Shown here one piece after another: positions 34,066-37,134 of a stretch of DNA of 64,000 nt (positions are counted from its first letter, which is position 1; each line of letters starts with the position of its first letter). Below the pieces are notes generated by a model. The model had not been told where the DNA came from. It made no database searches and was given only the letters and a program-made list of their open reading frames with translations. The position numbers and the translations under genes are program-made. The stretch lies in assembly GCF_030166655.1 (NCBI RefSeq), contig NZ_CP126446.1:1736001-1800000 (forward strand). The letters run 5' to 3'. The DNA comes from Pontibacillus chungwhensis. GTDB taxonomy: Bacteria; Bacillota; Bacilli; Bacillales; BH030062.

Positions 34066-34989
34066 ATGAAAAAATGGGTAATGGTTGTTTTTCTTGTTTC
34101 CATCTTTAGTTTAGCCGCTTGTGCTCAGGATGAAACAAACGGTAAAACAGAAGAAGATTCAGCTAATGAACAGGAAACGCAAGAAGAAGACAACACGAAC
34201 AATGAGGACAATATGGACGAAGAAAGTGAGAACGCTGAAGAAAGCAACTCATCTAAAGAAACTGATACTTCCACGGATCAAGAAACGACTACCGATGAAG
34301 AGCAAGAACAGACAGAAGATGAAGTGGCTACAGAGGAGCCAATTGAGCCAAAGTACAAAATTAATGATGTTTGGTCTGTAGTCCCTCTAGAAGGGCAAGA
34401 AAACGTAAACAGTGAAGTTGTACTTCTTACCATTGACGATGCTCCGGACGAACATGCTCTTGAAATGGCTAAGACCCTTAAAGAACATAATGCATCAGCG
34501 ATTTTCTTTGTAAATGGCCATTTTCTTGAGACAGAAGAAAAGCAGGAAATCTTGAAGCAGATTCATGATATGGGCTTCGCCATAGGAAACCATACTTATC
34601 ATCATCAGAAGTTAGACGATGTAGGGCAGGCTAAACAGCGCGAAGAAATTGTTTCGTTAAATAATAAGATTGAAGAGATTATTGGGGAACGACCGAAGTT
34701 CTTCCGAGCTCCCCATGGAGTCAACACAGATTATGCCAAGCAGGTTGTAGAGGAAGAAGGTATGGTGTTGATGAACTGGAGTTTCGGATATGATTTCAAA
34801 GCGGATTATATGACGAAAGATGCCATCACAGATATTATGTTAAACACTCCATTACTCGGAAGTGGATCAAACTTACTTATGCATGATCGTGAGTGGACCT
34901 CTAATGCTCTTGGCGACATAGTAAAAGGGTTGAAGGACAAAGGATACGGGTTTGTGAACCCGGCGGAAATTCAAACACCAGGCGAATAG
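34066..34989 (+). CDS. Polysaccharide deacetylase lipoprotein (NodB domain)
   Basis: A 307-residue lipoprotein: lipobox SLAAC (Cys19), a very acidic low-complexity linker of Glu, Asp, Thr and Asn (about residues 21-95) that would hold the enzyme off the membrane, then a carbohydrate-esterase-4 domain. Catalytic motifs are slightly unusual: TIDDAPD (122-128) for TFDDGP, the metal pair His176 and His180 in NHTYHH, and RAPHG (214-218) for RxPYG. It probably deacetylates cell-wall or matrix N-acetylglucosamine. GGGGGAAAG precedes the ATG. Exact substrate unknown. Confidence 0.85.
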   Translation: MKKWVMVVFLVSIFSLAACAQDETNGKTEEDSANEQETQEEDNTNNEDNMDEESENAEESNSSKETDTSTDQETTTDEEQEQTEDEVATEEPIEPKYKINDVWSVVPLEGQENVNSEVVLLTIDDAPDEHALEMAKTLKEHNASAIFFVNGHFLETEEKQEILKQIHDMGFAIGNHTYHHQKLDDVGQAKQREEIVSLNNKIEEIIGERPKFFRAPHGVNTDYAKQVVEEEGMVLMNWSFGYDFKADYMTKDAITDIMLNTPLLGSGSNLLMHDREWTSNALGDIVKGLKDKGYGFVNPAEIQTPGE

Positions 34990-34998
34990 CGTTTAGTT

Positions 34999-35026
34999 AA
35001 GAAGTCTTCCTTGGAAGGCTTCTTTT
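34999..35026 (+). terminator. Terminator after the deacetylase gene
   Basis: Stem GAAGTCTTCC / GGAAGGCTTC with one G-U pair, followed by TTTTGTTT. Confidence 0.75.
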
Positions 35027-35215
35027 GTTTATTCCCTTAATATGTGTAAGCTTTAGTTAATAGCTGTGTGAAATTATAAGGATTTCCTCTATATTTTTTT
35101 AAAGACAAGCTATATTTATTCCTTGCAAAGCGTATAGTTTTAATAAGAAAGGCGAGGAATCTTCGTTACAATGGAAGGGGGAAATTCTTAATTTAAATAG
35201 TGTTACTAAAATTAT

Positions 35216-35226
35216 AATATGACACA
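35216..35226 (-). promoter_or_regulatory. CcpN operator 1 (upstream) of sr1
   Basis: Minus strand TGTGTCATATT fits the CcpN consensus TRTGHYATAYW at all 11 positions. It faces the second site across about 25 bases. Confidence 0.65.
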
Positions 35227-35237
35227 CTAATTAGGGG

Positions 35238-35266
35238 TTGATTTCTTCTATGTGTCATACTATAAT
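35238..35266 (+). promoter_or_regulatory. Sigma-A promoter of sr1 with CcpN operator 2 in its spacer
   Basis: TTGATT (35238-35243), a 17-base spacer and TATAAT (35261-35266). The spacer holds TGTGTCATACT (35251-35261), a full match to the CcpN consensus, so CcpN would sit between -35 and -10. Transcription should begin near 35273. Confidence 0.75.
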
Positions 35267-35280
35267 ATAGTTAAGTTAAA

Positions 35281-35294
35281 TGAAAACGCTAACA
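35281..35294. promoter_or_regulatory. CcpA site (cre) at the start of sr1
   Basis: TGAAAACGCTAACA matches the cre consensus TGWAARCGYTWWCA at every position. It lies about 8 bases inside the predicted transcript, where bound CcpA would block elongation. Confidence 0.7.
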
Positions 35295-35311
35295 AAGGGG
35301 TTGGATAATCA

Positions 35312-35419
35312 ATGGGTACAATCGTTTGCCAAGACTGTCAGGGAATAATTGATCACTTTGATGATGAGAAGGTGTCGACTCTTTACGGTACATGTACGAC
35401 CTGCCATGAAGAAGAGTAG
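35312..35419 (+). CDS. sr1P: SR1P, GapA-binding peptide encoded in SR1
   Basis: A 35-residue peptide starting MGTIVCQDC with a central DDEKVSTLYGTC, the pattern of SR1P (39 residues in B. subtilis). Four cysteines in two CxxC pairs (C6/C9 and C28/C31) suggest a zinc knuckle; the tail HEEE is acidic. In B. subtilis SR1P binds glyceraldehyde-3-phosphate dehydrogenase GapA and promotes its contact with RNase J1. RNase J1 is encoded here at 19141. AAAGGGG lies 11 bases before the ATG. Confidence 0.85.
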   Translation: MGTIVCQDCQGIIDHFDDEKVSTLYGTCTTCHEEE

Positions 35420-35471
35420 GTTGTAAAAGAGAAAGACCATAGGTTCAACTCTAATTACCATAGAACAATAG

Positions 35472-35517
35472 AAAGCAGAGGCCGAAATCACAACTGATTT
35501 CGGTCTCTGCTTTTTGT
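35472..35517. terminator. Bidirectional terminator of sr1 and speA
   Basis: A 16-bp stem with G-U pairs (GCAGAGGCCGAAATCA / TGATTTCGGTCTCTGC), loop CAAC, five T on the plus strand and A residues before it. It ends just before the speA stop on the other strand. Confidence 0.9.
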
Positions 35518-35523
35518 TTATAT

Positions 35524-36996
35524 TTATCTAAAAGCCTTATGTTCTTTTATGACACGGATGGTTTCTAGTGTTTCATCTTCAGGCCCTTGTACTGGGAGTC
35601 CTGCATCCATATTAGAATGAATATATTGTATGTTTTCTTTTGTAATGATTTCACCAGGGAGCCATATTGGAATCCCAGGGGGATAGACCATTACGAACTC
35701 TGCACTGATTCTCCCGACTGATTCGTCAAGAGAAACAATTTCTGTATCAGCGTAAAAAGCATCCCTTGGAGAGAGGGCAAGGACTGGTATCTCAGGAACC
35801 TCAACTTGAAGGGGGTTCTCGTTTTTGTTCTTTACTCCAAATTCGTCAGAGAGAGACTGAAGAGCGTGAATTAAAATACCTGTTTCTTCTTCTGTGTCTC
35901 CAGGTGTTACAATGCAAAGAATATTATATAAGTCAGAAAGTTCGACTTCGATATTGTAACGCTCTCTTAACCAAACTTCTACGTCATATCCTGTTATTCC
36001 TAATTGCTTTACGGAGATGATGAGCTTAGTAGGATCGTAATCAAACGTGGCATTACTACCGATAATTTCATTTCCTACACAATGAAGATGTGGGATGGTA
36101 TTTATGCGATCTCTGGTCATGTTCGAAAGTCTAATTGTTTCTTCCATAAGGTTGCGTCCGTTAATGGCTAAATGTTTTCTAGCTGCATCTAAAGATGCGA
36201 GCAGAATATAAGATGTAGATGTCGTAGTCAACATAGAAAGAACAGATTGGACCCGTTCAGGCGTCACGAAGCTGGATTTTAAATTGAGCACAGAACTTTG
36301 GGTCAAGGAGCCCCCGAGTTTATGAACGCTCGTGGCTGCCATATCAGCACCAGCCTGCATAGCAGACAAAGGTAGCTCTTCATGGAAATGGATGTGAACT
36401 CCGTGTGCTTCGTCTACTAAAACGGGTACCTCATAAGAATGGGCAATTTCAACAATTCTTTGCAAGTCTGCAGAAATCCCAAAATAAGTTGGATTTATAA
36501 CGAACACACCCTTTGAGTCAGGATGTGCTTTTAGTGCCTTTTGCACAGCTTCAGGTGTAATTCCGTGAGAGATGCCTAAATTGTTATCAAGTTCAGGGTG
36601 TATAAATACTGGAGTAGCACCTGAGAAAATAATTGCTGATGTTACAGATTTATGCACATTCCTTGGAACGATAATTTTATCACCAGGGTGACAAACTGAC
36701 ATAATCATGGCCATAATAGCTCCGCTTGTTCCTTGAACGGAGAAGAAAGTATGGTCCGCACCAAAGGCTTCAGCTGCAAGGGCTTGTGCTTCTTTAATCA
36801 TCCCATGAGGATGATGAAGGTCATCTAAAGGACTAATGTTAATTAAATCAATAGATAGAGCCTGGTCGCCTAAAAATTCGCGGAACTCTTTGTTCATTCC
36901 CTTACCGGTCTTATGACCTGGAATATGGAATTGAACAGGTTTTCGTTTAGCGTGGTTTAATAGCCCTGTAAATAAGGGCGTGCGCTGTTGGGACAA
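35524..36996 (-). CDS. speA: Arginine decarboxylase SpeA
   Basis: A 490-residue PLP enzyme of the Orn/Lys/Arg decarboxylase group III fold, equal in length to B. subtilis SpeA; it makes agmatine for polyamine synthesis. IPGHK near the N-terminus, VDEAHGVH with the PLP-binding Asp195, and SVHKLGGSLTQSS with the Schiff-base Lys226 are visible. The TTG at 36996 is chosen: AAGAGGTG lies seven bases upstream and the product begins MSQQRTPLFTG like its relatives; the frame is open to a GTG at 37005. Lysine decarboxylase activity cannot be excluded. It converges on sr1, as in B. subtilis. Confidence 0.92.
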   Translation of the reverse strand: MSQQRTPLFTGLLNHAKRKPVQFHIPGHKTGKGMNKEFREFLGDQALSIDLINISPLDDLHHPHGMIKEAQALAAEAFGADHTFFSVQGTSGAIMAMIMSVCHPGDKIIVPRNVHKSVTSAIIFSGATPVFIHPELDNNLGISHGITPEAVQKALKAHPDSKGVFVINPTYFGISADLQRIVEIAHSYEVPVLVDEAHGVHIHFHEELPLSAMQAGADMAATSVHKLGGSLTQSSVLNLKSSFVTPERVQSVLSMLTTTSTSYILLASLDAARKHLAINGRNLMEETIRLSNMTRDRINTIPHLHCVGNEIIGSNATFDYDPTKLIISVKQLGITGYDVEVWLRERYNIEVELSDLYNILCIVTPGDTEEETGILIHALQSLSDEFGVKNKNENPLQVEVPEIPVLALSPRDAFYADTEIVSLDESVGRISAEFVMVYPPGIPIWLPGEIITKENIQYIHSNMDAGLPVQGPEDETLETIRVIKEHKAFR

Positions 36997-37134
36997 ATAC
37001 AACACCTCTTAATCGTTTAATAAAGCAAAGAAAGTATAGCAAAAGAGGGGGAGAAAAGCTAGATACTCACACAAAAAAACAATTTCTGATACGATAATAA
37101 AAAAGGTTATAGATATTGACAAGGAGGGGAAACC

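Follow-up and report, generated by a model that had tools for sequence, protein, structure and literature searches.

Between a polysaccharide deacetylase-like gene and a speA-like decarboxylase gene of Pontibacillus chungwhensis, the ordinary gene list leaves positions 34990-35523 of the window empty (the window being the whole stretch of DNA analysed, 64 kb long). Does this gap hold a complete sr1 locus, as the initial annotation had claimed, and how far does its layout follow that of SR1 in B. subtilis? The gap itself is confirmed, with the stop of the upstream gene at 34989 and the stop of the convergent decarboxylase gene at 35524. Apart from the elements given below, the only ORFs in it are three short ones on the opposite strand (34-60 aa), taken as chance. 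The promoter, the two CcpN sites, the cre box, the small ORF and the terminator listed by the initial annotation are each found where it had placed them:

34066..34989, + strand: polysaccharide deacetylase-like gene, upstream; a conserved neighbour with tblastn matches in relatives.
35216..35226, - strand: candidate upstream CcpN operator TGTGTCATATT, a consensus match; 10-11/11 upstream of the -35 box in 60/74 loci.
35238..35266, + strand: sigma-A-type promoter, comprising -35 TTGATT (35238-35243), a 17-nt spacer and -10 TATAAT (35261-35266); identified by 10/12 matches and by alignment.
35251..35261, + strand: candidate spacer CcpN operator TGTGTCATACT; 10-11/11 in 62/74 loci.
35270..35513, + strand: SR1 RNA (RF02376), 65.7 bits; transcript start predicted near 35273.
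35280..35294, + strand: cre box ATGAAAACGCTAACA, matching at 10/10 specified positions, about +8 to +22 of the predicted transcript.
35294..35300, + strand: ribosome-binding-like AAAGGGG, 11 nt before the ATG.
35312..35419, + strand: sr1p ORF of 35 codons, encoding SR1P (PF13790), 63.2 bits against a cut-off of 26.
35470..35515, + strand: intrinsic terminator with a 20-pair stem and a T-rich tail.
35524..37005, - strand: convergent speA-like decarboxylase gene, a conserved neighbour.

The proposed identity as SR1/SR1P beside speA is supported by both family models, by synteny and by the regulator and partner genes present. In a covariance search, a check the initial annotation had called for, the Rfam model antisense_SR1 (RF02376) is matched over positions 1-210 of 210, well above its gathering threshold of 45 bits (E 7.6e-11 in 10 kb), and it is the sole Rfam match in the window to reach gathering. 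The Pfam SR1P family gives a single match in the 4.17-Mb genome (E 1.5e-16), and the genome encodes CcpN, AhrC, GapA, GapB and PckA. RF02376 is also recovered in 19 of the 20 related loci supplied, with 192-229 bits in three B. subtilis-group loci versus 45-69 bits in the other 16 matches; given this drop, the signal outside the B. subtilis group may derive largely from the peptide-coding stretch. The locus is an ordinary member of the known SR1/SR1P family, sharing with B. subtilis the RNA and peptide families, the speA neighbour, a sigma-A-type promoter, the terminator and the partner genes, while its repressor sites appear to be arranged slightly differently. As a whole, it can be read with high confidence as an orthologue of sr1 of B. 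subtilis, an RNA predicted to be repressed by CcpN and CcpA and encoding the peptide SR1P, which is predicted to bind GapA.

The place of the locus is conserved as well, in line with the earlier claim. A convergent speA-like gene adjoins SR1P in 46 of the 58 named loci (out of 71) that extend at least 1.5 kb downstream. Two of the other 12 (L053, L062) have it at a distance of 1.2 and 2.0 kb, and in ten no speA-like match is found within the 8-kb locus; the loci without one include those of Salimicrobium, Lentibacillus, Ornithinibacillus, two Virgibacillus and one Oceanobacillus. All but one of these 12 loci retain one or more of the other flanking genes. The Pontibacillus speA-like gene is related to lysine, arginine and ornithine decarboxylases and scores below each NCBIfam cut-off shown. 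On the upstream side, the relative of the deacetylase-like gene at the same place in a B. velezensis record is annotated as polysaccharide deacetylase-like. As a separate observation, sr1 and other flanks remain where the speA-like gene is missing in L014, L015, L018, L038, L061, L075 and L078 (Salimicrobium, Lentibacillus, Ornithinibacillus, one Oceanobacillus).

The predicted transcript measures 244 nt (about 240). A length of about 245 bases had been regarded as a difference from B. subtilis, but it falls inside the range of 176-369 nt computed alike in relatives, where three loci lack a terminator call and a wrongly called terminator probably accounts for some of the longest values (e.g. 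L008). Compared with shuffles, the whole RNA folds better (z -5.0), but the body left after removal of the terminator shows no such advantage (z -0.77; 43 of 200 as good).

Repressor sites were scored against consensus strings that we take to be those of CcpN and cre. A match to the CcpN consensus is in itself weak evidence, since eight occur in the 64 kb and about two per strand are expected. What makes the pair convincing is its position: in 50 of 74 SR1P loci, the window included, both operators stand at 10-11/11 in the same two places, compared with 5.5% and 6.1% of shuffles per place. One or both fall below 10/11 in the other 24 loci. The count is based on 76 loci (the window, 71 named and four further loci), 74 of which have a callable promoter and sufficient room, with L031 and L047 dropped. 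The CcpN sites of B. subtilis are described as lying upstream of the -35 box and in the spacer (PMC8464778), and the two candidate sites of the window take up the identical layout. The initial annotation had described two full matches facing each other; both sites stand, but the facing orientation is not a separate design because the operator is near-palindromic. In the named P. chungwhensis locus of the comparison set, the CcpN consensus is matched on both strands at both places. In the window, a + strand word overlapping the upstream operator, two bases further on, matches 10/11 and lies 33 bases before the spacer site, compared with 32 in the B. subtilis relatives.

The cre box departs from the B. 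subtilis arrangement. A full match just inside the transcript had been claimed and is indeed present, 32 bases before the SR1P ATG; when the same 60 bases were shuffled 300 times, its score was never reached. According to two reviews, the cre of B. subtilis lies about 260 bp upstream (PMC8464778, PMC7430163), and a 9/10 match near that position in six B. subtilis-group loci (B. subtilis itself being outside the set) is taken as the described site. Upstream, from -400 to -120 relative to the ATG, the window has no match better than 7/10. Thus the likeness to the known B. subtilis design holds for the family, the place, the promoter and the CcpN operators, but not for the cre, and a cre about 260 bp upstream is regarded as a B. 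subtilis trait rather than as family-defining for SR1. A full cre between -50 and -20 occurs in 29 of 76 loci, many of them close relatives and not independent events: 29 of 34 in five halophilic genera (Halobacillus 14/15, Thalassobacillus 5/6, Pontibacillus 5/8, Salimicrobium 4/4, Sediminibacillus 1/1) and 0 of 42 in the others. From these positions, the cre appears to have been relocated relative to B. subtilis, as a feature common to the halophilic group. No passage of the literature covered here mentions a cre within the SR1 transcript of halophiles, although this does not establish that none has been described.

Instead of a CcpA site, the in-transcript box might be a coincidental match or belong to the RNA structure at the 5' end. 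Two facts speak for this reading: the box and the 5' stem of the Rfam consensus overlap, and 19 of 21 loci named Bacillus carry a 9/10 version in the leader though the described B. subtilis cre lies elsewhere. It is nevertheless distinctly unlikely: in the window seven positions of the Rfam 5' stem are deleted and the cre is still perfect, the 10/10 form recurs across the five genera even if many of the loci are closely related, and several loci match cre on both strands, as a palindromic operator predicts. A CcpA site is the preferred reading; covering the first transcribed bases, it should stand in the way of RNA polymerase more directly than the remote cre in B. subtilis. The Bacillus leader boxes are cre-like elements about 40 nt before the SR1P ATG in loci that are not independent of one another (L037, L048, L020 and other B. 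subtilis-group loci), in addition to the described upstream cre.

Combining these elements, a mechanism can be proposed from the sequence. When no glycolytic sugar is available, the sigma-A promoter would produce an RNA of about 240 nt. When sugar is present, CcpN would bind its two operators, just upstream of the -35 box and in the spacer, and CcpA would bind the cre within the first ~20 transcribed bases, blocking RNA polymerase. The derepressed RNA would be translated into SR1P, a small four-cysteine protein that probably binds zinc. By analogy with B. subtilis, SR1P would then bind GapA and promote the contact of GapA with RNase J1.

The CcpN side of this mechanism is consistent with the rest of the genome. 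The CcpN of P. chungwhensis is an NCBIfam equivalog match (348 bits against a cut-off of 260), and operators TGTGTTATACT precede gapB and pckA, with none in the gapA locus; an 11/11 operator is found at all seven gapB genes parsed. All three members of the B. subtilis CcpN regulon (gapB, pckA, sr1) have operators in P. chungwhensis as well. The two differ at ccpN itself, where the five B. subtilis-group genomes lack an operator after the -10 box and P. chungwhensis has one:

L091:2953-2963: candidate ccpN operator of the P. chungwhensis genome, a consensus match just upstream of ccpN (2303-2932, - strand).

In 25 of 31 genomes, a -10-like box of ccpN is followed at no more than 30 nt by an operator of 10-11/11 (20 at 11, five at 10; the Metabacillus case among the 25 is weak). 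Neither the sister genus (G008) nor any of the five B. subtilis-group genomes has it. Read in the ccpN direction, the words are AGTATGACACA or AGTATGTCACA, with variants (L091, L125-L154). In single genomes, shuffles reach 11/11 in 0-2.5% and 10/11 in 16-28% of cases, so the weight of this operator lies on the shared position. Autorepression of ccpN is likely from this pattern. In the literature passages covered, ccpN appears as its own target in one prediction, made for Lactobacillales (PMC3616900). The ccpN operator may prove a more useful lead than the sr1 locus itself. Across the genome, an extended CcpN pattern gives 14 matches (L083-L085, L088-L090 and others), 12 of them not at sr1, compared with five for a reversed control.

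The 35-codon ORF begins with MGTIVCQDC and contains two CxxC pairs, as described initially; they lie at residues 6-9 and 28-31. Its shortness relative to the 39 residues of B. subtilis SR1P, and its acidic tail, had been taken as differences; yet complete copies range from 33 to 43 residues (L029, cut by the locus end, being left out), and acidic tails occur in B. spizizenii (ending in DEE) and B. velezensis (EEE) too. Across 22 aligned copies M1-C9, E19, K20, Y25 and C28 are invariant and C31 nearly so, the invariance of residues 1-9 being an effect of selection, since MGTIVCQDC served as the search motif for every sequence other than that of the window. The best of five AlphaFold models (mean pLDDT 83.3, range 57.8-83.3) is a small beta structure. 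Foldseek finds no match to it at E <= 0.001; the best seven rows are Fur-family chains at E 0.43-0.64, one of these insignificant chains being titled Zn(Cys)4 PerR, so that model and search together give a hint of a zinc site and nothing firmer. A PDB sequence search returns a single match (E 0.25), which is disregarded, and NCBIfam returns none for SR1P.

On the partner side, Lys332 of GapA is reported as decisive for SR1P binding, and eight of nine SR1P homologues tested compensated the B. subtilis sr1 deletion (passages of PMC8152036). The P. chungwhensis GapA has Lys332 and Lys333, as does that of B. spizizenii. Among the 15 of 20 GAPDH loci that could be parsed (five were missed by the pattern), two of the three further Pontibacillus GapA keep only Lys333, Lys332 being replaced, and it is replaced in the one Halobacillus GapA as well. 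GapA binding is best described as a predicted property of the Pontibacillus peptide.

In B. subtilis SR1 also pairs with ahrC, and the initial annotation had proposed this pairing for 35420-35471, the segment after the ORF. In P. chungwhensis this segment pairs with ahrC no better than shuffles or other mRNA starts: 208 of 300 shuffles are at least as good, and ahrC ranks 27th of 49 mRNA starts, while the RNA body gives 242 of 300 and rank 34. Plain duplex energies show no signal in ten genomes. An accessibility-weighted scan of two genomes gives 35 of 40 shuffles at least as good in P. chungwhensis and 31 of 40 in the B. spizizenii control, and register-locked 7-mer complementarity over 31 genomes shows none beyond a codon-shuffled null (eight draws). 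The B. subtilis-group controls, where pairing is proven, failed throughout, and the three ahrC pairing tests, having no power, therefore decide nothing.

Over 25 genomes, the similarity of synonymous codons at 18 conserved positions of SR1P is 0.545 versus 0.463 expected (sd 0.019; 0 of 2000 draws), the expectation being taken from amino-acid-matched columns of speA and ahrC with draws that ignore relatedness among columns, and six of the 31 genomes, with a spurious 'speA' fragment, being left out. Given such an excess, the ORF may be under some constraint additional to that on its peptide. It is distributed unevenly: at codons 11-20 it is large in Bacillus (five genomes, 0.780 vs 0.628) and near nil in Pontibacillus (0.621 vs 0.597) and in the group of Halobacillus, Thalassobacillus, Salimicrobium and Sediminibacillus (0.584 vs 0.558). 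Overall it covers codons 11-34 in Bacillus, mainly 2-10 in the Halobacillus group, and 2-10 together with 21-34 in Pontibacillus.

Two readings of the RNA are compatible with these results. SR1 may keep the dual function it has in B. subtilis, with its contacts to ahrC spread over several short regions that are not colinear and that simple scans overlook; this has close to an even chance of being correct. The RF02376 match over the whole length, the presence of ahrC and the synonymous conservation above expectation agree with it, but none of the pairing tests gives a direct signal, and the synonymous excess could reflect selection at the translation start. Alternatively, in the halophilic clade the locus may be only a small-protein mRNA, with the SR1P/GapA role kept and the antisense role on ahrC (and kinA) lost or never present, which is a reasonable possibility at rather less than even chance. 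This agrees with pairing no better than shuffles in P. chungwhensis or the null over 31 genomes, with the lack of structure in the RNA body and the poor conservation of the post-ORF segment in an alignment of the nearest relatives, with the near absence of the codon 11-20 excess in Pontibacillus and the Halobacillus group, and with the report of a complementary kinA in only nine Bacillus species (passages of PMC8501984). Against it, the pairing tests fail in the B. subtilis group too, the Pontibacillus excess persists at codons 2-10 and 21-34, and PMC7430163, citing Gimpel 2012, calls both functions conserved. Under either reading, the locus is an sr1 orthologue whose transcription and repression in Pontibacillus are predicted from its sequence elements.

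The peptide is widespread, being found in nine of nine genomes of the family (P. chungwhensis included) and, in a sample of the order, in 247 of 299 genomes (102 of 116 genera). The pattern scan, which required the exact MGTIVCQDC start and so leaves divergent copies outside the set, gives 71 SR1P loci, many under genus names beyond Bacillus and Geobacillus; two Pontibacillus loci begin with MGTIICQDC. A 2021 paper reports SR1 homologues from 139 species, all of them Bacillus or Geobacillus (passages of PMC8501984), and the present locus adds a well-supported SR1/SR1P case outside these genera. Peptide, promoter, CcpN operators and place are suggested to be the constant parts, and the cre position, the 3' part of the RNA and the operator of ccpN itself the drifting ones, a division that makes it testable which of the two functions of SR1 is older. 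For the halophilic Bacillaceae (Pontibacillus, Halobacillus, Thalassobacillus, Salimicrobium, Sediminibacillus), it is conceivable, though doubtful, that the circuit has been rewired as a whole, with CcpA blocking sr1 at the transcript start, CcpN repressing its own gene, SR1 serving mainly or only as SR1P mRNA, and the ahrC antisense role confined to Bacillus and its near kin. A match to a different RNA lies near sr1 in a Halobacillus halophilus locus, where Rfam gives the Bacillaceae-1 RNA (RF01690, 58.4 bits) at L026:7085-7151.
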